Position numbers and translations under genes: made by a program
Part shown: positions 855 through 37,922 of the stretch, one piece after another
How the letters are laid out: each line of letters starts with the position of its first letter
How positions within the stretch are numbered: position 1 is the stretch's first letter
Notes under the pieces: model-generated
Databases searched by the model: none
Seen by the model: the letters and a program-made list of their open reading frames with translations, nothing else
What the model was told of the DNA's origin: nothing
Origin: a virus
Direction: 5' to 3' (one strand)
Length of the DNA stretch: 64,000 nt
IMG/VR virus record: IMGVR_UViG_3300028800_000060
Span: 1-64,000 of that record

Positions 855-3740
855 ATGATCGAAGTTTTAAAACCCATACGCTTAAACCGGTTTGAAATAC
901 CTGTTTATGGACCTCAAGGACCAATTGGTCCTACGGGACCAACAGGACCAGGATTTACAGGAACAACAGGAACAACAGGATATACAGGTCCTACGGGTTA
1001 TACAGGTACTACAGGATATACAGGATCTGGTAACTTTACTGGATATACCGGTTATACCGGCCCCTTTGGTCCTACGGGTTATACAGGTACTACAGGATAT
1101 ACAGGATCTGGTAACTTTACTGGATATACCGGATATACAGGAGACATGGGTCCTACTGGATATACGGGTCCCGGTAACTTTACTGGATATACGGGATATA
1201 CCGGATATACAGGAATCACGGGTTCTACTGGGTATACAGGTCCTATTGGAATCTTGGGTCCTACAGGTTACACGGGAGGCACAGGTTATACTGGATATAC
1301 AGGGCCTGAAGCTACTGGTCCTACTGGTTACACAGGTCCTGGTAACTTTACTGGATATACTGGGTTCACGGGATTTACTGGGTATACTGGAAATACTGGT
1401 CCCACCGGATATACGGGTCCCGGAAATTTTACTGGATATACCGGTTATACTGGATATACAGGGCCTGAAGCTACGGGTCCTACCGGTTACACAGGTCCTG
1501 GTAACTTTACAGGATATACGGGGTACACGGGACGTACTGGATATACGGGATATACGGGATATACGGGTCCTGGTAACTTTACAGGATATACAGGTCCTAC
1601 TGGTCCTACAGGGTATACAGGACCAATGGGGTTAAATGGAGGAAATTCAGGAAGATTATATTATCCGGAACATAGTGTTATTTCTGATATAGCATCTGAT
1701 CCTGAAGTAAATGTAGGGCATACATTTTACGATATTGCTTCACCCGTTCCTTCTCCTAATCCAGAAAGTTTTTATTCAATTTTTATTCCAGTACCGCCGC
1801 AAGATGAATATTATTATTTTATTGGGGCATTTGCTACTACCCCCGATCAACCAAATATAACATTCCAACCTATGGGAACAGCATTTCGTTATGCTTACGT
1901 TGCATCATCATCGGGACTAGCAGAATTACGCACCGACTTATTACGTTATCAAACTACGGGCCTAGTTGCTGATACTGGAAGTATTCCTCTTATATTTAAC
2001 AATGCTTCTAATTATAATGGTTATCAAAATACTATTACCCGATCTTCCGGAAGTTTCATTACCGATGGTTTTACGTTCCATGCATTGATCACAATTACTG
2101 GTTCGGGTTCTAATGATGGTGTATATACCATTCAAAGTGTCGAAGATTCAGTACTTACATTAATGCAACAAAATTCTTTAATAATTGAATCTACTACAGC
2201 CCGAATAACCACAAAAGAAAAACAATTACGTACATCAGAATCAATAAGTTTTGATAATACAACGGTTCAATTAGTAGAATGGTCATATTCAGCATCACAA
2301 GGAGAAATATTCGCTTCTGATGACCGCTTGCTATTTAAGTGGTGGGCACAAAATCTTGATGTAACGCCAACAACAATTATCTTATACACCGAGGGTATCG
2401 CGCACGCATCATTTATACAAACTACTATTTCTTCAGGACTTCAAGGACCCACAGGGCCTACAGGACCTGGTAACTTTACCGGATATACGGGATATACCGG
2501 GTATACTGGAAATACGGGTTATACTGGACCTGGAGCATTTACCGGATATACCGGATATACCGGATATACAGGCGTTCAAGGCCTAACAGGTCCTACTGGA
2601 TATACCGGTACCATCGGTCCCACAGGATATACAGGTGTTCAAGGGCTAACGGGTTTTACGGGTTATACAGGTCCTGGAGCATTCACCGGATATACCGGAC
2701 CTACTGGGTATACTGGACCTACAGGGTATACGGGACCAGGAAACTTTACGGGTTATACAGGACCTACTGGTTATACGGGACCTGGTAACTTTACCGGATA
2801 TACTGGGTATACAGGACCTACGGGATACACGGGACCAGGAAACTTTACAGGATATACTGGATACACGGGACCAGGAAACTTTACGGGTTATACAGGATAT
2901 ACCGGATATACTGGTCCTGGTAACTTTACGGGATATACGGGATACACAGGTTTTACCGGATATACCGGACCAGGAAACTTTACTGGATATACGGGACCTA
3001 CTGGGTATACTGGATACACGGGATCCGGAAACTTCACAGGATATACGGGACCTACTGGATATACTGGACCAGGAAACTTTACGGGATACACCGGATTTAC
3101 TGGATATACTGGGTATACTGGACCAGGAAACTTCACCGGATATACCGGGTACACAGGACCTACTGGATATACCGGACCAGGAAACTTTACGGGATATACC
3201 GGACCTACTGGGTATACTGGATATACGGGACCAGGAAACTTCACTGGGTATACAGGACCTACTGGGTATACGGGTCCTGGTAATTTTACGGGATATACCG
3301 GTCCTACTGGATATACCGGATTTACAGGGCCCGCCGCTTCTTTAACAACTTCATCTGGAAATCTAGGTGCAAATGTTACTATGACAACTGCCAACACATT
3401 ATATACAGGTCCAACAACCGCAGCACTTGCAACAGGAACCTGGTTAATTTTAGCACAAGTTACGGTTGCATCTGCTACCAATACCGCACAAAGAGTAACT
3501 GCAAGAATTTGGAATGGTACAACTATAATTGCAACAGGAGAAGAAAGTATATCAGCACAAGGCCCAGGTACTTCAGGTTATGTGAGTGTTAGTCTTTCGG
3601 GAATCGCAACAACCGCAAATGATACCTGGAATATAAGTTGTGCTTCCACCGCAGCCAATAGTGTTATGAATAGAAATCCGGGTGATAATAGTCCGGCTGC
3701 AAATAACGCTTGTAAAATTACAGCAATTCGCTTGGCCTAA
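855..3740 (+). CDS. collagen-like tail fibre protein
   Basis: A 961-residue protein with two long Gly-X-Thr blocks (residues ~19-262 and ~529-826) made of GYT, GPT and GFT triplets. About twenty times the triplet NFT replaces a Gly triplet, within G(P/S)GNFTG, keeping register but removing the glycine. Between the blocks lies a ~265-residue non-repetitive domain; the end is a ~130-residue beta-type tip ([15 protein letters not shown]...). The layout adaptor tail, triple-helical shaft, globular node, second shaft, tip is typical of phage collagen-like fibres. The role in host binding is inferred. The downstream glycosyltransferase starts 4 nt after the stop, so the Thr-rich shaft may be glycosylated. 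Confidence 0.85.
909..1640 (+). repeat. collagen repeat block 1
   Basis: DNA encoding tandem Gly-X-Y triplets dominated by GYT and GPT, with seven GNFT interruptions and two GPEAT insertions that break the triplet register. Codons vary freely between copies (ggatatacc, ggttatact, gggtatacg), so the repeat is kept at protein rather than DNA level. Confidence 0.9.
2438..3332 (+). repeat. collagen repeat block 2
   Basis: The second Gly-X-Y block is nearly pure GYT/GPT/GFT with roughly thirteen GNFT and two GAFT interruptions spaced about every 12-18 residues. Units of about 36-54 bp recur with synonymous changes, which makes the block prone to recombination and hard to assemble; true copy number may differ. 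Confidence 0.9.
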
Positions 3741-3744
3741 ATAT

Positions 3745-5505
3745 ATGCTGAACTTCTCAATCGTATTAATTGCGCGTAATGAAGCAAAAACTCTTCCGCG
3801 CCTTGTGAAATCATTAGAAGAATTTCAAAGACGTGAAGGTGAAATAATCCTACTTGATACGGGATCTACCGATGGAACTCCAGATATCGCTAGATCCCTG
3901 GGTTGTAATGTTACCGAAGTTGGCGAACGATTCATTACAATCATAAACAAAAATCTTGCCCGAAAAATCAATACACAATTTATAGTTGACAATGAAACAC
4001 CAATAGTTAAAGAAGGTGATAAACTTTTTGACTATTCTGCCGCACGAAACTTTGCTGCCTCATTAGCATCTAATGATATGTGTGCAATGCCAGATTGTGA
4101 TGAGGTTTATACCGTATTAAATCTAGATGCAATTCAAAAAGTTATTGAACTTGGTCATGAACAATTAGAATATCATTTCGTTTTTTCCCACTACGAAGAT
4201 GGATCTCCAGCAATACAATTCATGCACTGTAAATTCTATGATCGTAGAAAAATGAAATGGACTGGTGTAGTTCACGAAATTCTTTCTGGAGAAGCAAAAA
4301 GATTGTATTTGGACACATCAGTAATCAAATTAGAACATTGGCAGAATCCTTCAGAACATAGATCCCGTTATTTGACTGGGTTAGCTCTTGATTGTTATTT
4401 AAACCAAAATAATGACAGAAATTCACATTATCTCGGAAGAGAATTAGTTTGGACCGGAAGACACAAATCAGGCATCAAAGAACTTCAACGGCATATAGAT
4501 ATGCATAAGTTCCCAATGGAACGCGCGCAATCTATGGTTTTTATTGGTGATGCTTATGAAATGCTTGGTGATGAAGAAAACGCTATAAAATGGTACAATC
4601 AGTCATTCATAGATGATGGAACTCGTAGAGAACCATTATTACGACTCGCCCAACATTTTTGGAAGAAAAATTGCGCCCAAAAAACAGCATGTTATTGTGC
4701 CGCCGCATTAGAGATTGGTGAAACTAATTTTTATGCCAATTATGCTGCGCACTATACATTTGAACCCCATGAACTGATGTATTGGGCGAAATGGTATCTT
4801 GGTGATCGAGAAGCATCCAAAAAGCATTGGGAAAAATGTCTAAGTTATACTCCTCTTTCACAAAAATATTTACATGATGCGAGGTTCTACCTTGATCTAC
4901 CAAAGGTGTCTATTGTAATTCCATCTCTGGGACGTGAAGAAAAATTATTACGGTGTGTTGCTGCAATTAAAAAGAACGCAAATTATCCAGAAGAACTCAT
5001 CGAAATAGTTATTGAACGAGATTCTTTTGATAATCGGCAAGGTGTTCCAAAAACATTAAAAACTGGTGTTGCAAAGAGTACTGGAGAATTTGTTTTGTAT
5101 TTGGGAAATGATTGTATTCCTGAAGAAAACTTCCTCATTCTTGCTGTATTACAAATGCTCAAGAATTTCCCACAAAGAGATGGTCTTATTGGTTTAAATG
5201 ATGGTCCTACAAATCAAAATCTAGCTAAACATTGGTTAGCTTCTAAAAAATTATTACCTGACTTAGATGGTGAATTTTTCTGTACGCAATATCATCATGT
5301 TGGTGTTGATAATGAACTAACAGCACGTTGTATGCAATTACATAAATATGTTTGGTGTAATGAGGCGAGAATTACCCATGAACATTTTACATCTGGTGCG
5401 GAATGGGATGAAGTCTATAAACTTGGTTGGGATGAAAAATGTGTTGCTGAAGACCGAGCATTATTAGCCGAACGTGCCAAATTATTGAATTTTGAGATTA
5501 TTTAA
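3745..5505 (+). CDS. two-domain GT2 glycosyltransferase with central TPR-like region
   Basis: A 586-residue protein. Residues 1-~240 form a GT2 domain of the SunS/WaaE kind (FSIVLIARNEAKTLPRL, then LLDTGSTDGT and a DCD metal-binding motif). Residues ~245-400 look like helical TPR repeats (GDAYEMLGDEENAIKWYNQS). Residues ~390-586 form a second GT2-like domain (VSIVIPSLGREEKLL, YLGNDCIPEENF). The ATG at 3745 is used because upstream in-frame codons lie in the fibre gene. It sits 4 nt after the collagen-like fibre, so the fibre is an obvious candidate acceptor; that is inference. Sugar donor unknown. Confidence 0.85.
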   Translation: MLNFSIVLIARNEAKTLPRLVKSLEEFQRREGEIILLDTGSTDGTPDIARSLGCNVTEVGERFITIINKNLARKINTQFIVDNETPIVKEGDKLFDYSAARNFAASLASNDMCAMPDCDEVYTVLNLDAIQKVIELGHEQLEYHFVFSHYEDGSPAIQFMHCKFYDRRKMKWTGVVHEILSGEAKRLYLDTSVIKLEHWQNPSEHRSRYLTGLALDCYLNQNNDRNSHYLGRELVWTGRHKSGIKELQRHIDMHKFPMERAQSMVFIGDAYEMLGDEENAIKWYNQSFIDDGTRREPLLRLAQHFWKKNCAQKTACYCAAALEIGETNFYANYAAHYTFEPHELMYWAKWYLGDREASKKHWEKCLSYTPLSQKYLHDARFYLDLPKVSIVIPSLGREEKLLRCVAAIKKNANYPEELIEIVIERDSFDNRQGVPKTLKTGVAKSTGEFVLYLGNDCIPEENFLILAVLQMLKNFPQRDGLIGLNDGPTNQNLAKHWLASKKLLPDLDGEFFCTQYHHVGVDNELTARCMQLHKYVWCNEARITHEHFTSGAEWDEVYKLGWDEKCVAEDRALLAERAKLLNFEII

Positions 5506-7164: not shown

Positions 7165-7253
7165 AAACCAGGTACATTGGAAAACCTTGTAGAAAATGTG
7201 GTGAAACTCTCCGATATGTGTCAAATGGTTCAAGATATTTGGTTAGGATCTGA
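7161..7253 (+). CDS. tiny half zinc-ribbon peptide
   Basis: A 30-codon ORF overlapping the uvsW stop by ATGA. It has one CxxC pair in GKPCRKCGETLRYVSNGS. Phage zinc ribbons with this opening normally continue to a second Cys pair, which is missing here, so this may be the truncated start of a longer gene. It overlaps the phosphatase remnant that begins at 7216 in another frame. Confidence 0.35.
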   Translation: MKTRYIGKPCRKCGETLRYVSNGSRYLVRI

Positions 7254-8173: not shown

Positions 8174-8224
8174 ACTTTTCCTTTATGGTTCTTTAGGGCC
8201 TCATGGCCTTTAAGAGACCACATT

Positions 8225-8269
8225 AATAGGCTACACAGCCAGGATAGCATTTTGTCAAGTGTTTGTCAA
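8225..8269 (-). promoter_or_regulatory. minus-strand sigma70 promoter with 13-bp downstream element
   Basis: On the minus strand: TTGACA (8269-8264), 17 bp, TATCCT (8246-8241), 3 bp, then TGTGTAGCCTATT (8237-8225). A second TTGACA lies inside the spacer. The same arrangement with the identical 13-mer at the same 3-bp distance is found at 34355-34399. It should transcribe the small membrane protein at 8173. Confidence 0.65.
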
Positions 8270-8304
8270 GTATTATTTTAAAATATTTTAAATGTAGATT
8301 TTTC

Positions 8305-8333
8305 TTGCACTTAGCCGTAAAATATGTTATAAT
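8305..8333 (+). promoter_or_regulatory. sigma70-type promoter for gp55
   Basis: TTGCAC (8305-8310), 17 bp, TATAAT (8328-8333), 48 bp upstream of the gp55 start. Host-type control fits gp55 being needed before late transcription. Confidence 0.65.
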
Positions 8334-8381
8334 TGTATTAATAAAGAAAGAAATACTCAGAGATTTACCATTTGGAGAAAT

Positions 8382-9044
8382 ATGGCAAAGAAACCACACT
8401 ATGTGGATAATAAGCTCTTCCTAGAAGCCTTAACAAAATACCTTTTGGTTGTTAAACCCTTACGAGCCAAATATAACCTTGCGTGTAATAAATTGAAAAA
8501 GCAAGGAATTCCAAAAGATGAGTGGCCTGCTTTTGAACGTCCCCAGACACCTGAATACAATTATATTGGTGAATGTCTGTTGAAGATTGCCAATCATTTA
8601 TCCTACAGTCCCAAGTTTTTCCCAAATTTCCATAACCATTCTTTAAGAGAAGAAATGATTGGTGATGCATTGGAAAATTGCATCAAATATTTGGAAAACT
8701 TTGATCCTGCAAAGTCGAAGAATCCATTTGCATATTACACACAAGTTATGTGGTATGCATTCTATCGAAGGATTACTTCGGAAGCCAAGCAAACATATAT
8801 TAAGCAAAAAAGTCTTGAAAGTGCTATCGATTTCTTTGCTACACAAGGTGGAGATGATGGAGAGTATGCAAATACCTACATTAAATTCCTTCAAGAATCT
8901 AAAAATGATGTGATTGAAGATTTTGAAGAGCGGAAGAACAAAAAGAAGAAAACTACATCTGAGAATACCAAAAAACGTAAAAAGATTGATAACCCTGGTA
9001 TCGAGAGATTTATGGTCACTAGTACAGAACCTACATTTATTTAA
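8382..9044 (+). CDS. 55: gp55-like late sigma factor
   Basis: A 220-residue protein with T4 gp55 hallmarks: YVDNKLFLEAL near the N-terminus, REEMIGDALENCIKYLENFDP (residues ~88-108; region 2-like core), KNPFAYYTQVMWYAFYRRI (core-polymerase binding and -10 recognition), and a charged tail. T4 gp55 directs RNA polymerase to TATAAATA promoters with clamp gp45 as activator; gp45 is encoded at 25896. A ribosome site (TTTGGAG) precedes the ATG. Three exact TATAAATA sites in the window support it. Confidence 0.9.
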   Translation: MAKKPHYVDNKLFLEALTKYLLVVKPLRAKYNLACNKLKKQGIPKDEWPAFERPQTPEYNYIGECLLKIANHLSYSPKFFPNFHNHSLREEMIGDALENCIKYLENFDPAKSKNPFAYYTQVMWYAFYRRITSEAKQTYIKQKSLESAIDFFATQGGDDGEYANTYIKFLQESKNDVIEDFEERKNKKKKTTSENTKKRKKIDNPGIERFMVTSTEPTFI

Positions 9045-9239
9045 ATGACCCAAGAGCAAAACAATATAATTGCAGAAGTCAGGAAAGTATTTCCTGAATA
9101 TGTTGCCGAAGAGATTTTATTTTTGGAACATAAACCTAACTGTTATTGTGAAGGGTGTTCTAATCTTCCTAATGAAGATGGAGTTTTGTGTCAGAGTTGT
9201 ATCGAGTTGTTGCGAGAGGCTTTTAAGAAATATAAATGA
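9045..9239 (+). CDS. small zinc-binding-type protein
   Basis: A 64-residue protein starting directly after the gp55 stop. It carries CYCEGC and CQSC, a likely zinc knuckle, followed by a basic helix. It overlaps gp47 by 4 nt (ATGA). No family recognised; its place between gp55 and gp47 suggests translation with them. Confidence 0.6.
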   Translation: MTQEQNNIIAEVRKVFPEYVAEEILFLEHKPNCYCEGCSNLPNEDGVLCQSCIELLREAFKKYK

Positions 9240-10321
9240 GAACATTTGACACAAAGATAGGCCGGTGTGCTATCCTCGCAGATACTCATTTTGGTGCAAG
9301 AGCGGATAGTCCTGTTTTTCATGATTATTTCATGCGGTTTTATGAAGACGTGTTCTTTCCTTTCTTAGCCAAAAATAATATAAAGGTTGTCCTCCATTTG
9401 GGTGATTTTACTGATCGCCGTAAATATATAAATTTCGTGACATTGAATCGGCTCCGAAATTATTTCGTTCGTCGATTGCATGAACTTGGTATTACGTTGA
9501 TATGTACAGTTGGTAATCATGATACATTTTATAAGAATACCAATGAAATAAATTCGTTGCAAGAGTTATTTTTTGATAATCCTAATATTATTATCCTTAC
9601 AGAAGCTGAAGAGGTGATGTTTGATGGAACTAAAGTATTATTGGTTCCATGGATTAATGAAAATAACATTGAAAAAACATTGCAGTTGATTAAGGAAACT
9701 GATGCTAAGATTTGTTTTGGCCATTTAGAACTAAAAGGGTTCTTGATGAATCGAGGACAGAAATCTGAAATTGGTTTTGATGCTGCTATTTTCGAAAAAT
9801 TTGATTTGGTAGCTTCGGGACATTTTCATCACAAGTCTGATAATGGAAAGATTTTTTTTCTAGGAACTCCTTACGAACTAAATTTTGCAGATATAAATGA
9901 TCCGAGAGGTTTCCATACTTGGGAAATTGATACTACAGAACTTGATTTTTATCAAAATCCCCATAAGATGTTTTATAAAATTTATTATGATGATAAAGAT
10001 AAACCACTAGAAATCTTAACCAAGAAAATCACAGACAAATACCAAGGCACACACGTTAAGGTAATAGTACAGAATAGAACTAATCCAAATAATTTTGATA
10101 AGTTTATGGAATGTTTGTTTTCAATGTTACCTGCGGATGTTAAGATTGAAGAAGATTTATCCTTAGATGAAGGAAGTGAAGAAATGGTTGTTGATATGAC
10201 TGAGGATACTTTAACAATCCTTAATAAGTATGTTGATTGTTTGGAAATTGATACGGATAAAGAAAAGATTAAAGAAGAATTGAGGACACTCTATATTGAG
10301 GCGTCTAATATGGAAAGATAA
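9236..10321 (+). CDS. 47: gp47 recombination endonuclease subunit (Mre11-like)
   Basis: A 361-residue calcineurin-type phosphoesterase. The metal motifs run in order: ADTHFG (residues ~15-20), HLGDFTDRR (~55), TVGNHDTF (~91), FGHLELKG (~160) and SGHFHHKS (~196). With gp46 it forms the phage SbcCD/Mre11-Rad50 nuclease that resects double-strand ends for recombination-dependent replication and degrades host DNA. gp46 starts 9 nt downstream, as in T4. Confidence 0.93.
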   Translation: MRTFDTKIGRCAILADTHFGARADSPVFHDYFMRFYEDVFFPFLAKNNIKVVLHLGDFTDRRKYINFVTLNRLRNYFVRRLHELGITLICTVGNHDTFYKNTNEINSLQELFFDNPNIIILTEAEEVMFDGTKVLLVPWINENNIEKTLQLIKETDAKICFGHLELKGFLMNRGQKSEIGFDAAIFEKFDLVASGHFHHKSDNGKIFFLGTPYELNFADINDPRGFHTWEIDTTELDFYQNPHKMFYKIYYDDKDKPLEILTKKITDKYQGTHVKVIVQNRTNPNNFDKFMECLFSMLPADVKIEEDLSLDEGSEEMVVDMTEDTLTILNKYVDCLEIDTDKEKIKEELRTLYIEASNMER

Positions 10322-10330
10322 TTTTGGCAA

Positions 10331-12046
10331 ATGATTAACTTTAAAAGAATTCGTTGGAAAAATTTGCTCGGTACCGGAGATGAATTCACTGAAATCGAAT
10401 TAACCAAGTCGAATACAACCTTGATACAAGGAAAAAATGGTTCAGGAAAATCAACAGTTCTGGATGCTTTGATGTTCAGTTTGTTTGGTGAACCTTTTCG
10501 TAGTATTAATATTCCCCAGTTGATAAACGACACCAATGAACGAGATTTGTTGGTTGAAATAGAATTTTCTTCTGGACGAACCAATTATATGATACGTCGT
10601 GGTTTAAAACCCAGAATTTTTGAGATTTATGTTAATAGATCTCTTTTAAACCAAGATGCGAAAACACGCGATTACCAGAAATATTTGGAACAAAATATAC
10701 TTAAGCTCAACAAGAAATCCTTCAAACAGGTTGTAGTGCTTGGAAGTGCATCATTTGTTCCTTTTATGCAATTAACGGCTGCCGAGCGGCGAAATATCAT
10801 TGAAGACTTATTAGATATTCAGATTTTTTCGGCAATGAATTTGGCTTTGAAACAACGTATCGCGGAAATGAAAGAAGAGTATATTTCTCTTACAAATTCC
10901 ATAGAATTGCAAACGGATAAAATTGCATTAGTAAATTCTTATCTGAAGAAATTGAAATCCGATAATGTAATTGCGATTGACGAGAAAAGAAAGATCATTA
11001 CCAAGAATCAAAAACAGCGAACAGCCCTTGAAAAACAAATAGATTCGAAACAAAAAGAAATTAATAAGCTTCTTTCTTCCATTTCAGATCAAACACAACT
11101 CCAAGAGAAAATTAGGAAATTAGAAACTTCTGAAGATAAATTAAAGACGAATAAAACAAAGGCCGAAAAAGACCGAAAGTTTTATCAGGATAATGATGAG
11201 TGCCCTACTTGTAAACAGGGTATCGATGAAAAATTCAAAAAGAGCATGGTTAAGAAAAAAGTTGGATTAATTGCTGAAATTGAAAAAGCTTTAGGCCAAC
11301 TACAGAAGGATTTGAATAAATCAGAAACTCGTTTAACTGAAATTGGTAGCATTGTTAAAACTTTAGAAGGAAACAATAAGGAAATAAATCAATTTCAGAG
11401 TTCTGTTAGGGCTATCGAAACCTTTATCGAAAAGGTTAAGGAAGAGATCGAAACTCTTAAAGAGAAAAAAGGAAGTTCTGAAGAACAAGAAAAAAAACTT
11501 AGTGAATTAGAAAAAGAATTAGCAATATTAAATGAACAACGGGAAAATATAACATACCGAAAGCATTATTTGGATATTGTTTCTGTTATGTTGAAAGATA
11601 CCGGAATTAAAACCAAGATCATTCGTCAGTATTTGCCGATTATTAATAAGTATGTCAACCGATATTTGGCAGCAATGGATTTTTTTGCTAATTTCTCGAT
11701 TGATGAAAATTTTCGTGAGATCATTCATATTCGTGGAAGTAAAGAACGGACATACTATCAATTGAGTGAAGGCCAAAAATTACGTATCGATCTTGCTATT
11801 CTATTCACTTGGCGGGATGTAGCCAAGCTTAAAAATAGTGCAAGTACTAATCTTTTGATAATGGACGAGATATTCGAATCTTCATTAGACGCAACTGGTG
11901 TGGAAGATTTCTTGAAATTAATTCAATCCCTTAGTAAGGATGTTAACATTTTTATTATCAGTCCTCAGGGTGACCAGTTGATTGATAAATTTACCAATAC
12001 AATTAAATTTGTTGAGAGCCAAGGGTTCTCAGTTATGGAGCAATAA
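10331..12046 (+). CDS. 46: gp46 recombination endonuclease subunit (Rad50-like)
   Basis: A 571-residue SMC/Rad50-type ATPase. Walker A is QGKNGSGKST (~residue 37); a long coiled coil (~170-430) is interrupted by the zinc-hook CPTC (~residue 295). The ABC signature is LSEGQKLRIDLA and Walker B is LLIMDEIFESSLD. It pairs with gp47 immediately upstream. Confidence 0.93.
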   Translation: MINFKRIRWKNLLGTGDEFTEIELTKSNTTLIQGKNGSGKSTVLDALMFSLFGEPFRSINIPQLINDTNERDLLVEIEFSSGRTNYMIRRGLKPRIFEIYVNRSLLNQDAKTRDYQKYLEQNILKLNKKSFKQVVVLGSASFVPFMQLTAAERRNIIEDLLDIQIFSAMNLALKQRIAEMKEEYISLTNSIELQTDKIALVNSYLKKLKSDNVIAIDEKRKIITKNQKQRTALEKQIDSKQKEINKLLSSISDQTQLQEKIRKLETSEDKLKTNKTKAEKDRKFYQDNDECPTCKQGIDEKFKKSMVKKKVGLIAEIEKALGQLQKDLNKSETRLTEIGSIVKTLEGNNKEINQFQSSVRAIETFIEKVKEEIETLKEKKGSSEEQEKKLSELEKELAILNEQRENITYRKHYLDIVSVMLKDTGIKTKIIRQYLPIINKYVNRYLAAMDFFANFSIDENFREIIHIRGSKERTYYQLSEGQKLRIDLAILFTWRDVAKLKNSASTNLLIMDEIFESSLDATGVEDFLKLIQSLSKDVNIFIISPQGDQLIDKFTNTIKFVESQGFSVMEQ

Positions 12047-12203: not shown

Positions 12204-12221
12204 AAGAAATTGTGATATAAT
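12193..12221 (+). promoter_or_regulatory. promoter of the ACP gene; near-leaderless start
   Basis: TTGCAA (12193-12198), 17 bp, TATAAT (12216-12221) with an upstream TGTG extension. The ATG at 12232 begins 10 nt after the -10 box, so only about three untranslated bases are expected and no Shine-Dalgarno fits. Confidence 0.65.
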
Positions 12222-12231
12222 AGAATATTCT

Positions 12232-12465
12232 ATGAAAAAACGATTAATTAAATGTTTTAAACAAGTGTTTCCTGAAGTACCAAATAGTCAAATAGGCTCA
12301 ATTAAGGACCAATCAGTACACGAATGGACCTCACTTACTGTCATACAATTAATTATGGCAGTAGAACGTGAATTTGGAATTGAAATTGATTTAGAACGTC
12401 TCGAACATTTAACATCATTTGATGCCTTCTTGGGGGAAGTTGAAAAAGCCTCCTCGGCAGAATAG
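12232..12465 (+). CDS. acyl carrier protein
   Basis: A 77-residue four-helix carrier protein. The phosphopantetheine site is Ser34 in EWTSLTVIQL, where the usual Asp before Ser is Thr; helix II/III reads AVEREFGIEIDLERLEHLTS. I take ATG 12232; an upstream in-frame ATG at 12193 falls within the promoter. It lies 15 nt before an FkbH-like gene, and ACP-FkbH pairs are known to build or activate small acyl groups (for example glyceryl-ACP). It needs a phosphopantetheinyl transferase, not seen here. Confidence 0.75.
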   Translation: MKKRLIKCFKQVFPEVPNSQIGSIKDQSVHEWTSLTVIQLIMAVEREFGIEIDLERLEHLTSFDAFLGEVEKASSAE

Positions 12466-12480
12466 AATTGGAAGAAGTAA

Positions 12481-13437
12481 ATGAAAGCAATAATAACTGA
12501 TTTAGATTATACCTTTTGGCAAGGTGTATTGATTGAAAATGGTACGCAGGTAAAAATATACCAACGATATGCCAACTTCTTGAAGGAGTTACAAACAGAG
12601 GGAATTTTAATAGGCGTAGCTAGTCGAAATGATTTTGGTCTTGTGGAGGAAGCTTTAAAAGATTTCGATTTTTTCCCAATAGAAACAAGTTTGTATGGAA
12701 ATAAATCTCTATTGGTTTCTAATATATTGTATGCCTGGAATATTCTCCCAGAAGATGTACTTTACATAGATGACAATGTATTTGAAATCCGAGAAATTTG
12801 TTCTAAATTCCCTAGTATGAAATACCTCATTTTTGATGGTGATAATGAAAAGGAAACTGTAGAAATGCTCAGAAATGAATGTTTTCCAAAAAAAGAGGTA
12901 TCTACAGAAGATAAACTCAGACGAGAAAGTATTAAGGCGGGTGTAAGATTTAATCGTGAAATGGTAGAAACTGGTGATACTGAAGAATTTTTTGGATCTT
13001 TAAATGCTGAAATTGTTGTGTGTGAAGAATGGACGCCAAGAGCAATTGATTTGATCAATAAAACACATCAATTTAATATTAATGATTTGAAATTAACCGA
13101 AGATGATATAGAAATAGCAAAATTATTTACCGATGTGAAATGCGTTACATTTAGTTATACCGATAAATTTGGTTCATTAGGTACTGTAGGTGTAGCAATA
13201 GTTACAAAATTTACCAATAGTTGTTGGTTACATTCTTTTTGTTTGAGTTGCCGTGCTTTTGGACGTAGGATAGAACATCAGATGTTGAATTATCTGAACA
13301 CCAAATACGGACCAATTAATATCAATAATATCGATTTACACGATACAGGTAAAAATCAGGCGGCCCTCGATTTCTTTAAAGAAATATCTTGTACAAAATT
13401 ACATCATAAGGTTATATGCACGAAAACCGTGAAATAA
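12481..13437 (+). CDS. FkbH-like HAD-family acyl-ACP enzyme
   Basis: A 318-residue HAD-IIIC/FkbH-type protein. The catalytic start is TDLDYTFWQG (residues 6-15), with SRND (motif II region) and YIDDNVFEI (motif III). The C-terminal GNAT-like half has NKTHQFN, DKFGSLGTVG and CLSCRAFGRRIEH, all FkbH marks. FkbH enzymes load a glycolytic C3 unit onto a carrier protein; here the partner ACP is directly upstream. The product in a phage is unknown; it probably feeds a surface or virion sugar modification. Confidence 0.82.
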   Translation: MKAIITDLDYTFWQGVLIENGTQVKIYQRYANFLKELQTEGILIGVASRNDFGLVEEALKDFDFFPIETSLYGNKSLLVSNILYAWNILPEDVLYIDDNVFEIREICSKFPSMKYLIFDGDNEKETVEMLRNECFPKKEVSTEDKLRRESIKAGVRFNREMVETGDTEEFFGSLNAEIVVCEEWTPRAIDLINKTHQFNINDLKLTEDDIEIAKLFTDVKCVTFSYTDKFGSLGTVGVAIVTKFTNSCWLHSFCLSCRAFGRRIEHQMLNYLNTKYGPININNIDLHDTGKNQAALDFFKEISCTKLHHKVICTKTVK

Positions 13438-14156
13438 TGAAATCGTTGTTGATGGGTACAACGATTGATCCTTCGATGGATTTTGAAGATAGAAATCAAT
13501 TGCGTTTCATTGCCAATTTTAGTAAACTGTTGAAATCGGAAGCATACACAATGCTTCCGCGCATACGGTTGGATAATATAGAACATTGTATTGATACTAT
13601 TGTTCGGGATGGCATACAAGGTGATGTAATTGAAACTGGTGTGTGGCGAGGTGGTGCCACAATGTATATGCGGTATCTTTTGAATCAATACCAGAAAGAT
13701 AATACCATTGTGTGGGTTGCAGATTCATTTGAAGGATTACCAGAACCCGATGAAACCCAATTTCCCATAGAATTTGAATCTTACCATTCACCAATATTCA
13801 AAAAATATAATCGTTTTGCAGTTGGTTTAGAACAAGTAAAACAGAATTTTGATTTATTCGGTTTGCTTGATGAAACCGTTAAATTTCTTCCGGGATGGTT
13901 TAAAAATACTCTACCCACGGCTCCTATAGAAAAGCTATCACTTTTGCGCCTTGATGGTGATTATTATTCATCTACAATGGATGCATTAGAAAATCTTTAT
14001 CCTAAATTATCTCCTGGTGGTTTCTGTATTATTGACGATTATGGGGAAACATCTTGGACTGCTTGCGCACAAGCTTGTCAAGATTATGCCGAAAAGATAC
14101 AAACTGATATAGCTATTACTCCCGTCGATTCGAAATGCATATATTGGCGTAAATAA
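13416..14156 (+). CDS. TylF/macrocin O-methyltransferase-like enzyme
   Basis: A 246-residue class I methyltransferase of the TylF family. The SAM motif is GDVIETGVWRGGATMYM (residues ~71-87), followed by VADSFEGLP, LRLDGDYYSSTMDAL (metal-binding Asp) and GGFCIIDDYG. These enzymes methylate sugar hydroxyls. It overlaps FkbH by 22 bp; AAGG sits just ahead of ATG 13416, and a TAATG restart at 13437 is an alternative. Confidence 0.82.
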   Translation: MHENREIMKSLLMGTTIDPSMDFEDRNQLRFIANFSKLLKSEAYTMLPRIRLDNIEHCIDTIVRDGIQGDVIETGVWRGGATMYMRYLLNQYQKDNTIVWVADSFEGLPEPDETQFPIEFESYHSPIFKKYNRFAVGLEQVKQNFDLFGLLDETVKFLPGWFKNTLPTAPIEKLSLLRLDGDYYSSTMDALENLYPKLSPGGFCIIDDYGETSWTACAQACQDYAEKIQTDIAITPVDSKCIYWRK

Positions 14157-14176
14157 AATTCCTAAATATTCATATA

Positions 14177-15877
14177 ATGAAATACTATTACGACAGAAAT
14201 TCTTACATTATTGACGATCCTGAAATCAATGTTAGATTTGAAGAATTATTGTTCATGACGGATAATGATTTTGAAACTTGGGTTGATAAATTACGATCTA
14301 AAGTTTTACAAGTGTGGGATGAATATGGCGTTCCTCCATTAGGTGGAATTGATGAAAGAGATATGTGTGAAGAGTTCCGTAAGATGAGTGGAACTCCGGG
14401 GAAAACAATTTCACTCTATAAACCAAAATCGGGAGCAACAAAACCGTACATTGATCAGATGGATGGTAAAGCAAATGTAATTATAAATGATGGCTATATG
14501 GGTTCTTGTGTCAACCAATTTTTCGAGAACATGGCTAAAGCCAAGATTAATTACCAGACAAAAGTAACTGAAGAAGGAAGTTTTAGTGGATATGCCGTTT
14601 ATGATTTGTTCGCCAATGATAAATTTCGAAATAGAATGCAAAAGGGCTGCCGACGTCATTTCAGGAGAGATTCGTTCTATCGTTACTCTGCTTCCATTCC
14701 AAAGAACAGCGGCATCGGACTCGTACCAGCAGAAACAGGAAAAGAATGGGTTAGATTCTTCAAACAAGACTTTATTAAGTTCGGTGAGTATGGATACTGG
14801 CTTAATAGAGTAGAAGCGCCTGAAGAAGGAGAATTGGGAAGTGGTTATACTTCCATCGATCTTTCTCAGTTCTTGTGGTTGAGTAAAGCAGAAATTATCG
14901 AATTGGTAAGTCTTGGAATTATCCAAAGAAGTAGTTTGACAAATTTAGCCAAATTCGATACAGAAATGGATTTTATTGCCGGAGATTCTAGTTTAGAGAA
15001 TACATTAGCAACATTATCACGTGAATTAAAAGATGAAGAACAATACCATATTAGGTTTTATAAGAAGTCTGCGCGTATTTTTCCAGTTGGTTTCACCGCC
15101 TTTAAAATAGGCTACATACAAATTGCCGTTAATTTCCCACCAATGATTGCTAAGTATTTGTACGAGAAGTATACCGATCATTGCAAGGACCAAAAAGTAA
15201 TCAACATCTACGACCCCTCGGCCGGCTGGGGTGGACGTATTGCTGGAGCAATGACAGTTCAGGAAGATAGACATATCCATTATATTGGTACAGATCCCAA
15301 TATGGATAATTTTATTGATGAACTTGGTATTACTCGCTACGAATATCTTGCACAATTTATCAATCATTCACTATCATCTGGATGGGGTTATGAACCACAT
15401 ACTTTTGATGTATATCAATTGGGTTCTGAAGTAATTGGGAAAGATAAGAATTTCAAGAAATATAAAGGTAAGTTGGACTTAGTTTTTACTTCACCTCCAT
15501 ATTTTAATCGTGAAGGTTATTCGGAAGATGAAACCCAATCACTCAAGAAGTTCCCAGTTTACAAGAATTGGGTTGATGGTTTTTTAAGACCAACTTTAGA
15601 AACTGCGGTAGAATATTTGAAGCACGATAGATATCTCTTATGGAATGTTGCCGATATCTTTTGTGGTAAAGAATGTATCCCTATAGAACAAGATAGTAAC
15701 AAAATATTAAAATCTTTGGGTATGAAATTTATTGGTGTGGAGAAAATGTGCCTTGCCGGAATGCCAGGCGCGAATCGTGTTTCTCCTGAAACTGGTCTTC
15801 CTCAATGCAAAAATTTTTGCAAAATTAATGGGAAGTGGCATAAATATGAACCAATATTTGTTTGGTTTAAACCATGA
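14177..15877 (+). CDS. TSPPY-type DNA methyltransferase
   Basis: A 566-residue protein. The C-terminal half contains the SAM-binding motif YDPSAGWGGR (~residue 344), TDPNMDNF, and the catalytic TSPPYFNREGY (~residue 437), typical of amino-group DNA methyltransferases of the N4-cytosine type; the tail ends PIFVWFKP. The N-terminal ~330 residues are unlike common methyltransferases and may bind the target. It may protect phage DNA or take part in a larger base modification with the PLP and GNAT genes downstream. CTAAATA at 14161-14167 could be a late motif. Confidence 0.75.
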   Translation: MKYYYDRNSYIIDDPEINVRFEELLFMTDNDFETWVDKLRSKVLQVWDEYGVPPLGGIDERDMCEEFRKMSGTPGKTISLYKPKSGATKPYIDQMDGKANVIINDGYMGSCVNQFFENMAKAKINYQTKVTEEGSFSGYAVYDLFANDKFRNRMQKGCRRHFRRDSFYRYSASIPKNSGIGLVPAETGKEWVRFFKQDFIKFGEYGYWLNRVEAPEEGELGSGYTSIDLSQFLWLSKAEIIELVSLGIIQRSSLTNLAKFDTEMDFIAGDSSLENTLATLSRELKDEEQYHIRFYKKSARIFPVGFTAFKIGYIQIAVNFPPMIAKYLYEKYTDHCKDQKVINIYDPSAGWGGRIAGAMTVQEDRHIHYIGTDPNMDNFIDELGITRYEYLAQFINHSLSSGWGYEPHTFDVYQLGSEVIGKDKNFKKYKGKLDLVFTSPPYFNREGYSEDETQSLKKFPVYKNWVDGFLRPTLETAVEYLKHDRYLLWNVADIFCGKECIPIEQDSNKILKSLGMKFIGVEKMCLAGMPGANRVSPETGLPQCKNFCKINGKWHKYEPIFVWFKP

Positions 15878-15937
15878 CACAATTTCCTATGACGATTTGG
15901 AATTTTATGAAATAGAGGAAATCCTTTACAAAGAAAT

Positions 15938-16915
15938 GTGTTTGTTGATGAATTTGCATATATGTTAGATTTATCTATTCCCAATTATACACCGCAGCAT
16001 TATAAAAAACTAATTAATTTTTTAGCACCTATAGAAGAATACGCTGGTTACTCTATTAAGAGGGGAGAAAAATTTCATTTAGGCCCTATCCAAGGTATGA
16101 AGGTACTTCAATGTTTGCATGTGGTCCATTCTAATTTAGACCATATTAAGAAGAATTGTAATGGTGGTATCTTAACCGCCGCCGGTTTACCTTCCCCACA
16201 AACAATGATTGTATCTGCCGTAGCCAAATATTTTGGTCTCAAGTGTGCAATCACTACACCGAGGTTTGAAAATGGTAAAAGAGATTTTAATCGTATCAAT
16301 GCATCTGTTGCCCAAAAGCTTGGTGCTACTGTTTATGGTGTTGGTAATCCTAATCCTGCTGGGCCTGAACATGATGCGAAATGTTTAGTTGAGGAGTTAG
16401 GATACTATCAAATTAAGTTTGGTATGTGCGGTGATGTTGCTATGGAACCCGTGATAGAACAATGTGTTAATATTCCAGATTACGTTAGAGATATTGTTGT
16501 TATTAGTGGTTCAGGTTTAACTGCATTAAGTATTGTCCAGGGATGCAAGAAGTTTGAAAAGAATGTCAAACGAGTTGTTGCGGTTTGTTTGAGTAAACAT
16601 ATTATTGCAAATAAAGAGAAGTGGATAAATGATTTTACTCTCAAAGACCCTATTTTACAAATAGAAAAAACCAAATACGCATATAGAACAGAACACAAAT
16701 ATAAAGGTGGGTTTGATTTCGATTTGACCTATGAAAGTAAAGCATTTGAGTGGATGGTTGAACACTGTAAACCTTCAAAGACTGTTATGTTTTGGGTAGT
16801 TGGTAAAAAACTTTATGATCTTGATTTGATTGAACCCATAGATTGGCATATGTCACAACACGAAAAAGAATTACGAGAACCTATAAATAATTCCATAGAA
16901 AGGTTTTTCGTTTAA
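15938..16915 (+). CDS. PLP-dependent enzyme, ACC deaminase/TrpB fold
   Basis: A 325-residue fold-type II PLP protein. IQGMKVLQCL supplies the likely Schiff-base lysine (~K55), GGILTAAGLPSPQTM resembles the substrate loop, KLGATVYGVG follows, and VVISGSGLTALSIVQG fits the phosphate loop. Substrate unknown. The start is uncertain: GTG 15938 has no good ribosome site, ATG 15962 is possible, and upstream bases 15878-15937 read in another frame as an acidic helix (YDDLEFYEIEEILYKE) that would extend this protein, suggesting an N-terminal frameshift. It is translationally coupled to the GNAT gene (TAATG). Confidence 0.75.
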   Translation: MFVDEFAYMLDLSIPNYTPQHYKKLINFLAPIEEYAGYSIKRGEKFHLGPIQGMKVLQCLHVVHSNLDHIKKNCNGGILTAAGLPSPQTMIVSAVAKYFGLKCAITTPRFENGKRDFNRINASVAQKLGATVYGVGNPNPAGPEHDAKCLVEELGYYQIKFGMCGDVAMEPVIEQCVNIPDYVRDIVVISGSGLTALSIVQGCKKFEKNVKRVVAVCLSKHIIANKEKWINDFTLKDPILQIEKTKYAYRTEHKYKGGFDFDLTYESKAFEWMVEHCKPSKTVMFWVVGKKLYDLDLIEPIDWHMSQHEKELREPINNSIERFFV

Positions 16916-17373
16916 TGTTGAGATTGGCTAAATTAGAAGAAGTTTCCGAAATATGCCGGGCATTTCAAAAATTTGAAAAGCGTCAGAAGGAAAAAGGATT
17001 ACCTCCCGTTTTTTCTTTTGTGCGTCATGACTATTTAAAACGTTGTGTTGAATCCGGAACTTTATATTACGATAATGGTATGATTGCTGTTTTAAAACAA
17101 TACAAAGTTAAAACAAAGTATGGCTCGCGCCCGGGCGACTGGTGTATGCCGGAGGTTCTTAGTGTAACTGATAACCCATTACACGTAATTTCGTTTTATA
17201 AACGAATTATAGCAGAGAAGGTAAAAAGTGCTCGGTTATACGGAACAATCCGCGATGATAATACCATTTCTTTAGCTTTCCATACAGCATTAGGATATAG
17301 ACGGGTTGGTGATATTAGTTGGAGTAATGGAACTTTACCAGGTGGTGTTTTCGTTTATGAGTCTAAAAATTAA
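16915..17373 (+). CDS. GNAT-family acyltransferase
   Basis: A 152-residue GNAT protein. The C-terminal part shows the family pattern (NTISLAFHTALGYRRVGDIS), with a preceding acyl-CoA-loop region around HVISFYKRIIAEKVKSARLYG. Its start overlaps the PLP gene stop. GNAT enzymes can modify DNA (Mu Mom) or sugars; position after a DNA methyltransferase and a PLP enzyme makes both possible. Specificity cannot be told from sequence. Confidence 0.7.
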   Translation: MLRLAKLEEVSEICRAFQKFEKRQKEKGLPPVFSFVRHDYLKRCVESGTLYYDNGMIAVLKQYKVKTKYGSRPGDWCMPEVLSVTDNPLHVISFYKRIIAEKVKSARLYGTIRDDNTISLAFHTALGYRRVGDISWSNGTLPGGVFVYESKN

Positions 17374-18181
17374 ATTTGTTGATTTTTGGCCCGGATTTGA
17401 CGTTAATAATAATTACTTTACCAATTTACTTCATAAAGAATGGAATATAGAAAATACAGATTCGCCAGATTATGTAATATGTTCTGTATTTGGAAATAAC
17501 TATAAGAAATATAATTGCACTAGGATTTTGTTTACGGGAGAAAATACCCGTCCTAATTTAGTGGATTATCATTTCAATTTTGGTTTCGATTATGTTGATG
17601 ATGATCGTTACTATAGATTGCCATTATATCTGATATATGGTTCTCCAGAAGAATTACTTACAAAACTATCTTTTGAGGATAATCTTAAACAAAAAACAAA
17701 ATTTTGTAGTTTTGTGGTTGGTAATCCTAATGCCAAGGAACGTCTTGAATTTTTTGACCTATTATGTAAGTATAAAATGGTTGATTCCGGTGGGCCTGTT
17801 AGAAATAATATAGGTAGAAATCTCGATCCTGGAGAAAAAGTAGAATGGTGTAGGCAATACAAATTCTCTTTGTGTTTTGAAAATTCATCGTATCCTGGAT
17901 ATACGACTGAGAAATTATTCCAAGCGATGCAATCTAATACCATTCCAATCTATTGGGGAAATCCATCAGTTGCACGAGATTTTAATCCTGGAAGTTTTAT
18001 TCATGTGAATTATGGTTATTCTGATGCGATTGAATTGATAAAGGAAATTGATAAAGATAATGATTTGTATCGCATAATTTACGAACAACCATATTATCCA
18101 AATAATCAATTGACCGAATATACTAAAACAGAAAATATATTAAACCAATTTAGAAGGATTTTTAATGGCAACATTAGATGA
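17357..18181 (+). CDS. GT10-family fucosyltransferase-like enzyme
   Basis: A 274-residue protein with the alpha-1,3-fucosyltransferase signature FENSSYPGYTTEKLFQAM followed by NTIPIYWGNP and FIHVNYG (residues ~172-225), plus ILFTGENTRP upstream. GT10 enzymes transfer fucose or a related sugar from a GDP donor. I start at ATG 17357, 17 bp inside the GNAT gene; the upstream ATG would overlap much further. Part of the sugar-modification island. Confidence 0.82.
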   Translation: MSLKIKFVDFWPGFDVNNNYFTNLLHKEWNIENTDSPDYVICSVFGNNYKKYNCTRILFTGENTRPNLVDYHFNFGFDYVDDDRYYRLPLYLIYGSPEELLTKLSFEDNLKQKTKFCSFVVGNPNAKERLEFFDLLCKYKMVDSGGPVRNNIGRNLDPGEKVEWCRQYKFSLCFENSSYPGYTTEKLFQAMQSNTIPIYWGNPSVARDFNPGSFIHVNYGYSDAIELIKEIDKDNDLYRIIYEQPYYPNNQLTEYTKTENILNQFRRIFNGNIR

Positions 18182-18809
18182 GAAGCATTTAGTAGGTAGT
18201 TTACTTCATATAATTGATGACCCAGTGATTGTAGAACTTGGGGCACATATTGGTGAAGAAGAACCATGGATACGTCATTGTTGTAAAACACCTCCAAAGT
18301 ATATTATGGTAGAACCTGATCCGGCAAATCAGATGCAAATCCGTAAGAATATATTTAATTTTAACCATACTCTTTATAGTGGTGCTATAAGTGATAAAAA
18401 TGGAACATCTGAATTTTATCGTTGCGATAATACATTAGAACCTGTGTTATATTCACATGGTTCTGGTTCCATTCATAAACCTACGGGACACTTGAGACGC
18501 TTTCCTCATGTACTTTTTGATAAGCCAATAATGGTCAAGTCCTTCACTTTAGACCATATTTTCGAAAAAGAAAAGTTATCTAAGATAGATTTACTTTGGG
18601 TAGATATTCAAGGTGCGGAAAAAGAAATGATTGCTGGTGGCCGTAAAGCTTTAAAGCACACTCGTTATCTGTTTATGGAAGCTGAGTTTGAGGAATTATA
18701 CGAGGGAGAAGCTTTGAAAACTGATCTAATCTCATTGTTACCAGATTGGTCATTAATACAAGATTTTGATTATAATATTGTCCTTAGAAATGAGAAAATG
18801 AAAAAATGA
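18165..18809 (+). CDS. FkbM-family methyltransferase
   Basis: A 214-residue class I methyltransferase: VIVELGAHIGEEEPWI (SAM motif I), IMVEPDPANQ, and the FkbM signature KIDLLWVDIQGAEKEMI with a following LFMEAEFEELYEG. FkbM enzymes O-methylate sugars. AAGGA precedes the ATG; the start overlaps the GT10 gene by 17 bp and the stop overlaps the next gene by 4 bp, so the island is one translational chain. Confidence 0.85.
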   Translation: MATLDEKHLVGSLLHIIDDPVIVELGAHIGEEEPWIRHCCKTPPKYIMVEPDPANQMQIRKNIFNFNHTLYSGAISDKNGTSEFYRCDNTLEPVLYSHGSGSIHKPTGHLRRFPHVLFDKPIMVKSFTLDHIFEKEKLSKIDLLWVDIQGAEKEMIAGGRKALKHTRYLFMEAEFEELYEGEALKTDLISLLPDWSLIQDFDYNIVLRNEKMKK

Positions 18810-20251
18810 ACCAGGATTTATTAGTTTCGTGTATTACAGTTACAACAAAAAAACGAAAAGAATTTTTCCCACAATTGTTACGGTGTTGGTGGGAACAGAC
18901 ATATTTAAATACGGAACTTGTTATCGTTTCAGAAGATGACATGTCTGATGTAATTCCTAATCATCCTAGAATTCGTTTTATTCCATGTGCTCCCGGGACT
19001 TCATTGGGCCAAAAAAGGAATATTGCCTGTGAAGCTTCTAGAGGAGCTATTATAGCTCAGTTTGATGATGATGATTGGAGTTCTCCACAACGAGTTGAGG
19101 AGTGTGTGGAAGCTTTAGTTACCAAAAAAGTATTTGTTACAGGATATAGAGTTGCTAGGTTTTATGAAACAGATACCAAAATTGCAAGAATTTGGGATGG
19201 TGGTCCTAATTGGATTCAAGGATCGAGTTTGTGTTTTATAAAATCTCATTGGCAAGGAAATAAATTTCCAGATGTTGCTTCTGGAGAAGATCTATCTTTT
19301 TTACAAAATGCAGGCCTTATTTTTACTATGAATGGAATAAATCGAATGGTTTTTAGAGATCATTCTGATAATACTTGGCCACGAAAAATACATTATGGAA
19401 AAGAATGGAAGGTAATCGATTCAAATTCTACACAAAAGTTATTATATTCGCAAGAGAAAACCAAAGTTACATTAAGCATGCTTACGTGGAATGATAAAGA
19501 AAAAACTTTAGAAAATTTGAATGCTCTGAAAGCAGAAGCGGAGAATCTTCGCAAATTTAATTTTGATCCATGTATTGTAGTGTGTGATAATGGTTCCATA
19601 GATGGAACTAAATTGGCATTGAAAAAGGTAAAAGGTATACATGTTATCAATAATAAAGCAAATTTAGGAATTGCACCGGCTAAAAATAAGATTATTGATT
19701 ATGCTATAGATAATGATTCTGAATTTGTGCTTTTTACCGATTGTGATATTACGGTTGTGCCTTTTAGTGTGTTAGAAATGCTGAGATGGTTACGACCGCG
19801 AGCCTCACAAGCAGCATGTGTGGGAACAAATTGGTATAAGTGTACTGAAGACCCAAATCTGGCCGCACGATGGTGTCCTACAATTATGGATGCTGCAATA
19901 TTTCCACATCAAGCGCCAGCACATTATGGCCTATTTTTTACAAATATATTGAATCGTTATCGGTTTGATAATCATTTTGGCCCGGGTTGGGGAGCCGAAG
20001 ATAATGATCTGGCGATGAGTATTGAAGATGAGACTTATTTAAAGATGTATGTGTTTCCTTTGATACACGTACATCAACATCCACATAAGTCGATTGAATT
20101 ACTTAAAACAGATGGAATTAATCCTGAAAATGATATACGTGAACGTTATTCCCATATGATTGAAAAATGGAAAGATAAGCCTGAATTTGCCCAATTTATA
20201 AATTGGTTAATTAATGCAAAAGAGTCAAACAAAAATCTTTTACCATCTTGA
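18806..20251 (+). CDS. tandem GT2 glycosyltransferase
   Basis: A 481-residue protein with two GT2 domains. Domain 1 (~1-205): SCITVTTKKRKEFF, QKRNIACEASRG and AQFDDDDWSSP (DxD). Domain 2 (~220-480): TLSMLTWNDKEKTLENL, CDNGSIDGTK, FTDCDITVVP and GPGWGAEDNDLAM. Two active sites suggest a bifunctional enzyme adding two sugars or building a repeat. It ends the operon; 33 nt later a new promoter-driven gene starts. Confidence 0.85.
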   Translation: MNQDLLVSCITVTTKKRKEFFPQLLRCWWEQTYLNTELVIVSEDDMSDVIPNHPRIRFIPCAPGTSLGQKRNIACEASRGAIIAQFDDDDWSSPQRVEECVEALVTKKVFVTGYRVARFYETDTKIARIWDGGPNWIQGSSLCFIKSHWQGNKFPDVASGEDLSFLQNAGLIFTMNGINRMVFRDHSDNTWPRKIHYGKEWKVIDSNSTQKLLYSQEKTKVTLSMLTWNDKEKTLENLNALKAEAENLRKFNFDPCIVVCDNGSIDGTKLALKKVKGIHVINNKANLGIAPAKNKIIDYAIDNDSEFVLFTDCDITVVPFSVLEMLRWLRPRASQAACVGTNWYKCTEDPNLAARWCPTIMDAAIFPHQAPAHYGLFFTNILNRYRFDNHFGPGWGAEDNDLAMSIEDETYLKMYVFPLIHVHQHPHKSIELLKTDGINPENDIRERYSHMIEKWKDKPEFAQFINWLINAKESNKNLLPS

Positions 20252-20277
20252 CGAATGAAATGATTTTGTGATATAAT
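20248..20277 (+). promoter_or_regulatory. sigma70 promoter with leaderless start
   Basis: TTGACG (20248-20253), 18 bp ending TTTTGTGA, TATAAT (20272-20277). The ATG at 20285 is 7 nt after the -10 box, where transcription should start. Confidence 0.7.
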
Positions 20278-20284
20278 AGAAATT

Positions 20285-20491
20285 ATGAATGTGCCTTTTA
20301 GTCCCGCCGAAACGGAAGCTATAAATCAAATGGCCAAAGTGTCAGATATTTCTCCTGAAGCTTTGGTGGTGCAAGCTGTTAGGATGTATCAATTGTGGAA
20401 AATGAATCGAATTAGATTAATTTGGCCAAGGATCTTGGAACACAAGCTTGTTGATGCAGAACCAACATCTATTGAACCGGTTTATGGTTAA
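20285..20491 (+). CDS. small ribbon-helix-helix-like protein
   Basis: A 68-residue protein. Residues 3-40 (FSPAETEAINQMAKVSD..SPEALVVQAVRMY) resemble a ribbon-helix-helix DNA-binding fold: a short strand, helix, turn, helix. It has its own strong promoter and probably a leaderless mRNA, so it may be an early regulator. The 3' end overlaps the minus-strand micro-protein at 20469. Confidence 0.5.
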   Translation: MNVPFSPAETEAINQMAKVSDISPEALVVQAVRMYQLWKMNRIRLIWPRILEHKLVDAEPTSIEPVYG

Positions 20492-37820: not shown

Positions 37821-37824
37821 AAAT

Positions 37825-37914: not shown

Positions 37915-37922
37915 GAGGTTTT

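Follow-up and report, generated by a model that had tools for sequence, protein, structure and literature searches.

Bases 12232-20251 of a 64,000-base stretch of viral DNA (the window; bases 1-64000 of the 175,698-base IMG/VR virus record IMGVR_UViG_3300028800_000060) hold an island of about 8 kb that encodes an acyl carrier protein (ACP), an FkbH-type enzyme, a TylF-family O-methyltransferase, a DNA-methylase-like protein, a PALP-fold enzyme, a GNAT-fold acyltransferase, a GT10 glycosyltransferase, an FkbM-family methyltransferase and a two-domain GT2-GT2 glycosyltransferase (Table 1). Comparison with related phages indicates that the island is a composite, in which a mobile ACP-FkbH-GNAT acyl-relay cassette and a glycan-decoration set appear to surround a DNA-methylase gene of the phage backbone. 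We tentatively propose that the cassette would place a glyceroyl unit on an amine of a phage macromolecule, be it a base in DNA or an amino sugar. The end product may be an O-methylated, N-acylated glycan on a virion protein, a reading that we put forward with similar reserve and for which a collagen-like fibre is the best candidate acceptor.

A predicted mobile ACP-FkbH-GNAT cassette

The record is that of a T4-like phage from a metagenome: T4 gp46- and gp47-like proteins are encoded at 9236-12046 of the window, and another part of the record, L007, encodes a gp23 homologue with ~59% identity to the gp23 proteins of cyanophages, of a pelagiphage and of Methylophilales phages. A nucleotide search of the phage collection returned no DNA-level relative of the island. 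The three cassette genes were nevertheless found together in two further records, G003 (97 kb, locus L024) and G038 (77 kb, locus L112), both probably partial when compared with ~176 kb. The L024 genes for ACP (12551-12784), FkbH (12781-13803) and GNAT (13796-14272) overlap at both junctions and lie 3' of gp46, the order being gp46, two small open reading frames (ORFs), ACP, FkbH, GNAT, an ORF of 87 amino acids (aa), a PALP enzyme, a HAD-like ORF and the methylase. The contiguous L112 cassette (ACP 5783-5998, FkbH 6001-6993, GNAT 6983-7453) is located instead between RlaP-type and macro-like genes, the homologues of which overlap each other directly in the window phage (40070-40822, whose L112 copy belongs to the RlaP family, and 40785-41273). 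Since the same three genes stay together at two genomic sites, ACP-FkbH-GNAT appears to move as a unit and to constitute a separate mobile cassette.

ACP and FkbH are separated by 15 nucleotides (nt) in the window, and the two genes also adjoin each other in L024 and L112. The candidate phosphopantetheine serine of the window ACP, Ser34, lies within WTSL, where the usual DSL reads TSL; this ACP is 48% identical to that of L024, with W32 and S34 kept in the alignment. For the window FkbH, Pfam gave only a weak HAD domain, and the NCBIfam model TIGR01686, which scored 206 bits with the L024 protein, confirmed the assignment. The window enzyme is short at 318 aa, compared with ~580 aa in bacterial relatives, and its HAD motifs D7xD9xT11, S48, K75 and D97-D98 are invariant in the alignment, as is S256-C257-R258.

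The window GNAT gave no family match by sequence alone and was assigned from its predicted structure. Foldseek matches of the model include SbzI alone, the SbzI-SbzG complex and Rv1347c; sequence identity to SbzI/FeeM-type GNATs is about 10-13%, and many GNATs that use coenzyme A (CoA) also match. A homologue in L038 exceeds the PF00583 cut-off. In Mom modification of DNA, an acyl group is added to adenine N6. Membership of the window GNAT in the Mom family was rejected for lack of a family match; the GNATs of the window, L024 and L112 matched no Pfam or PHROG family, and a distant relation to Mom is possible. When 84,980 genomes of bacteria and archaea were scanned with short patterns, a scan that was not exhaustive, no relative of the GNAT was found. 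The IMG/VR scans used short conserved patterns too, so that absences from them are weak evidence.

The FkbH proteins of the three phages fall into a single clade (support 99/89) that was stable on leaving out each in turn, with long branches, and is sister to FkbH proteins of mainly Acidobacteriota and Planctomycetota. In the nearest bacterial loci, the ACP gene mostly lies immediately 3' of FkbH, often followed by a glyoxalase-like ORF (assigned by eye). The sequence-only reading that preceded this analysis had regarded ACP-FkbH as unusual for phages, and this was borne out: of 50,697 phage records, no more than one or two, both faecal contigs without annotation, gave an FkbH match. One such match, in phage record MT835480, was set aside as an unverified faecal contig in which the neighbouring ORFs look bacterial, one being folylpolyglutamate-synthase-like by eye. 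Separately, three viral contigs (L116, L113 and L147) hold ACP-FkbH within sugar-type gene clusters with glyoxalase-like ORFs.

A backbone methylase and its PALP neighbours

The methylase-like protein carries an SPPY motif that is invariant in 10 homologues; its PF01555 match lies below the cut-off. The predicted structure (predicted local distance difference test, pLDDT, 72.7) matched methyltransferase folds, and the structural model gave no identification for the N-terminal ~300 aa. In a sister phage (L008/L023; record G001, 176.8 kb), gp46 and the methylase are each 74% identical to those of the window and are followed by a homologue of 20285-20491 and then by an IMPDH/GMP-reductase gene. 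No homologue of ACP, FkbH, TylF, PALP, GNAT, GT10, FkbM or GT2-GT2 was found in G001. Since the sister phage carries the methylase without the other island genes, the methylase is a phage backbone gene; the others would have been either acquired to its left and right or lost from the sister phage.

The PALP protein, a fold-II enzyme of the pyridoxal-phosphate-dependent (PLP) type, gave a profile match to 1-aminocyclopropane-1-carboxylate (ACC) deaminase structures (3e-8). Lys55, at the Schiff-base lysine position, is invariant in the alignment, and the PF00291 match lies below the cut-off. A 52% identical enzyme is present in L009, where PALP and methylase share a common gene neighbourhood, as they do in L024 and L029. 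A different PALP-fold enzyme directly precedes the methylase in L066, L067, L082, L092 and L096 (the L067 methylase was placed by tblastn), which marks PALP-methylase as a recurrent pair.

Organization of the island

The sequence-only reading had described a single overlapping chain of genes that could build a methylated, acylated sugar. All the enzymes that it named were located, by profile matches or, for the GNAT, through the predicted fold. Overlaps occur at five of the eight junctions (FkbH/TylF, PALP/GNAT, GNAT/GT10, GT10/FkbM and FkbM/GT2-GT2), the other three having gaps of 15-60 nt, so the chain is only partly overlapping. An identical promoter-like 12-mer, TGATATAATAGA, stands just before the ACP gene and again before the gene that follows the island, where it would close the island and open the next unit. 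The window holds seven matches to this motif at one mismatch or fewer, compared with 2.5 expected, one variant lying at 25450. Because of these two identical sites, which are consensus matches only, 12232-20251 looks like a single transcription unit. The tandem GT2 enzymes of that description proved to be two GT2 domains in one 481-aa ORF rather than separate enzymes. A single pathway of nine genes was rejected: the methylase, as a backbone gene, occurs without the rest, and relatives carry the cassette apart from the glycan genes.

Table 1 Features of the island, its promoter-like sites and the collagen-like fibre locus (positions in the window)
Feature	Position	Strand	Evidence and remarks
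Promoter-like site, extended -10 type, TGATATAATAGA	12213..12224	+	TTGCAA-17-TATAAT; just 5' of ACP
Acyl carrier protein	12232..12465	+	PF00550 24.0 bits, cut-off 20.8
FkbH-type HAD-IIIC enzyme, 318 aa	12481..13437	+	TIGR01686 149 bits, cut-off 146.65
TylF-family O-methyltransferase	13416..14156	+	PF05711 2.5e-76; start overlaps FkbH by 22 nt
SPPY-motif DNA-methylase-like protein	14177..15877	+	PF01555 2.8e-4, 21.4 bits (cut-off 26.7); phrog_498 9e-7
PLP fold-II (PALP, ACC-deaminase-like) enzyme	15938..16915	+	PF00291 3.6e-6, 27 bits (cut-off 35); phrog_3650
GNAT-fold acyltransferase (predicted)	16915..17373	+	AlphaFold (AF2) pLDDT 84.2; Foldseek GNATs probability 1.0
GT10 glycosyltransferase (alpha-1,3-fucosyltransferase type)	17357..18181	+	PF18025 2e-25, PF00852 1e-18
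FkbM-family methyltransferase	18165..18809	+	PF05050 2.4e-18; TIGR01444 69 bits, above cut-off
Bifunctional GT2-GT2 glycosyltransferase, 481 aa	18806..20251	+	PF00535 two stretches; two separate genome matches
Second promoter-like site, identical TGATATAATAGA 12-mer	20269..20280	+	Just 5' of gene after island
Collagen-like putative fibre, 961 aa	855..3740	+	PF01391 6e-36
GT2-TPR glycosyltransferase	3730..5505 (ORF 3682-5505; start approximate)	+	PF00535 9e-21

The glycan-decoration set and a candidate acceptor

The closest structural relatives of TylF in the Protein Data Bank (PDB) include mycinamicin III 3''-O-methyltransferase (1e-59) and NovP (2e-54). As its gene overlaps FkbH and the protein is close to these two enzymes, TylF could act on either a sugar or the acyl unit. 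It also matches O-methyltransferases of cluster O mycobacteriophages (28.6% over 65%). The GT10 protein matched the bacterial alpha-1,3-fucosyltransferase structure 2nzw (2e-37), and candidate motifs of the GT2-GT2 protein were DDDD near 87, TDCD near 312 and GWGAEDND near 397, with a chondroitin synthase match of 1.5e-5. GT10-like and FkbM-like genes also lie 3' of clamp-loader-like genes in L092, so these families are not special to the window phage. None of the island enzymes, glycosyltransferases included, has a clear membrane segment. No PF01370 epimerase was found in G000, G001, G003 or G038; its lack in the phage record suggests that the host probably supplies the nucleotide sugars.

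Near the start of the window, the putative fibre contains about 123 Gly-X-Thr triplets (76 GYT and 26 GPT), and directly 3' of its gene lies a GT2-TPR glycosyltransferase that is 81% conserved in the sister phage. This Gly-X-Thr protein is a candidate acceptor of the glycan. A second collagen-like protein is encoded at L004:7216-8163, followed by a GT4-like gene (PF00534) at 8216-9385 (record positions 111216-113385), and the product of L004:4005-7208, 1067 aa long, combines collagen repeats with a CBM_5_12 carbohydrate-binding module. Elsewhere, 12 tRNA genes were predicted in the window, all within 37824-49313 except one at 26894, and an IMPDH/GMP-reductase-like gene at L130:11779-14043 is split by an ORF resembling a homing endonuclease, possibly an intein.

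Proposed acyl relay

FkbH-family enzymes and stand-alone ACPs are taken to form glyceroyl-ACP from 1,3-bisphosphoglycerate (PMC7489565), and SbzI moves an acyl group from a carrier protein to an amine (PMC6331615). In the mechanism we propose, the phage FkbH would draw on 1,3-bisphosphoglycerate for a C3 unit and load this as a glyceroyl thioester onto the phage ACP, the holo form of which would be made by a host phosphopantetheinyl transferase, as known FkbH-ACP pairs suggest. The GNAT would then move the acyl group off the ACP and onto an amine, for which SbzI and FeeM are precedents. From the FkbH-ACP chemistry and the presence of SbzI among the structure matches of the GNAT, we infer that transfer from glyceroyl-ACP to an amine is the most economical reading. 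A methoxymalonyl-ACP pathway was rejected, as no dehydrogenase is found among the island ORFs. O-methylation by TylF would target either glyceroyl or a sugar, FkbM would be a second methyltransferase, probably an O-methyltransferase, and GT10 together with the two-domain GT2 enzyme would use nucleotide sugars of the host to build a short glycan. A methylated, acylated sugar, as the sequence-only reading had suggested, is still our best guess for the product.

If this proposal is true, carrier-protein chemistry would be a phage modification or counter-defence system. For phage modification, the literature cited here describes routes based on CoA-type donors, on ATP-dependent ligation, on S-adenosylmethionine derivatives or on nucleotide sugars, and a phage-encoded carrier protein delivering an acyl group would be a different donor chemistry. 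The targets of glycosyl- and methyltransferases of T4-like phages are now mostly inferred; the island would then give a concrete test case, and the cassette, at three genes, is small enough for reconstitution.

Alternative explanations

Several findings weigh against a glycan on a virion protein. The cassette is interrupted in the window by the TylF, methylase and PALP genes. In the incomplete L024 and L112 records it is present, and GT2, GT10 and FkbM were not found there, nor TylF in L024; the cassette would thus not need the island's glycan set. The sister phage, which has none of the island's own genes, shares the glycosyltransferase and has a collagen-like fibre whose repeat region is shorter, which makes the link between fibre and island indirect. 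Finally, GNAT or PALP genes lie beside the DNA methylase in related phages, pointing to DNA. DNA hypermodification is the main rival, although we consider it somewhat unlikely: the methylase, PALP enzyme and GNAT would act on a base amine, with ACP-FkbH supplying glyceroyl for the GNAT to add in the manner of Mom and the glycosyltransferases possibly adding sugars to the modified base. Consistent with this, in L038 and L110 the GNAT gene overlaps the start of the methylase, with an Asp/Asn hydroxylase-like gene 5', and PALP and methylase are paired or share a neighbourhood in the loci listed above. Phages are known to decorate bases with acyl or amide groups, as in Mom (PMC7824862) and 5cxmC-glycine (PMC12783734). 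An unrelated contig, L148 (IMGVR_UViG_3300028887_001776), encodes FkbH, two ParB-like proteins, a DNA-methylase-like protein, an ACP and a GNAT-like ORF 5' of the terminase; its GNAT was assigned by reading the sequence and has no family match. The L148 gene set may be an independent acyl-ACP DNA modification operon, and a relationship of its GNAT-like protein to the window GNAT was unsupported by hhalign. Against DNA as the target, the sister phage carries the methylase without PALP, GNAT, ACP or FkbH; in the L112 phage the cassette lies ~14 kb from the methylase, and PALP was not found; no family match ties the GNAT to Mom or to DNA modification; and the interval between gp46 and the methylase is variable in gene content, so that adjacency may merely mark a favoured insertion site.

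A change of the host surface, in which the enzymes would alter O-antigen or capsule of the infected cell, for instance as a block to superinfection, is improbable. It would fit the bacterial FkbH-ACP modules that often lie near glycosyltransferase-type genes, the reading of pelagimyophage glycosyltransferases as O-chain modifiers (PMC7029224), and the sugar-type clusters around FkbH-ACP in the viral contigs L116 and L147. The lack of clear membrane segments leaves no GtrB-type anchored transferase among the island enzymes, and PF01370 epimerases are absent from the four records named above, no search having been made for flippase or polymerase genes. Given the missing membrane segments and epimerases, the host surface is probably the least likely of the three sites that the sequence-only reading had offered, namely virion protein, DNA and host surface. 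We also give little credence to a product unrelated to glycans, either a diffusible antibiotic- or siderophore-like small molecule or a modification of host protein or RNA. FkbH-ACP with an O-methyltransferase does recall glyceroyl- and methoxymalonyl-ACP pathways (PMC7489565), and cyanophages have been proposed to carry secondary-metabolite-like clusters (PMC7824862), but the island has no polyketide synthase, nonribosomal peptide synthetase or dehydrogenase and does have three glycosyltransferase domains.

Comparison with known systems

Like the FkbH-ACP systems for glyceroyl loading in FK520, tetronate and related pathways, the island places FkbH beside a stand-alone ACP and keeps the HAD motifs and carrier serine; it differs in the length of the phage FkbH (318 aa), in the GNAT of the cassette and in having no oxidising dehydrogenases or polyketide synthase. 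The carrier-protein GNATs SbzI (with SbzG) and FeeM share with the phage protein a GNAT fold, predicted in the latter, whereas identity is only about 10-13% and the donor and acceptor of the phage enzyme are predicted. For the glycan set, the nearest likeness is virion glycosylation in cluster O mycobacteriophages, which have a homologous TylF-like O-methyltransferase with glycosyltransferases. In these phages the O-methyltransferase gene lies by tandem glycosyltransferases, and capsid and tail tube are reported to be modified by the enzymes (PMC11600133). The phages are, however, Mycobacterium siphophages, and the description consulted does not mention ACP, FkbH, GNAT or GT10. The predicted product class, an N-acylated, O-methylated sugar on a surface protein, resembles flagellin glycans such as the di-O-methylglyceric acid pseudaminic acid of C. 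jejuni and the modified viosamine of P. syringae (PMC3958885). Those glycans are bacterial, whereas the phage, having no sugar-epimerase gene, probably has to use host nucleotide sugars. DNA hypermodification of the Mom and 5cxmC types resembles the island in the acyl or amide decoration of phage DNA, and the island has an adjacent DNA-methylase-like gene; the phage GNAT differs in having no Mom family match and in its predicted ACP-bound donor, in contrast to CoA or ATP-ligase chemistry.

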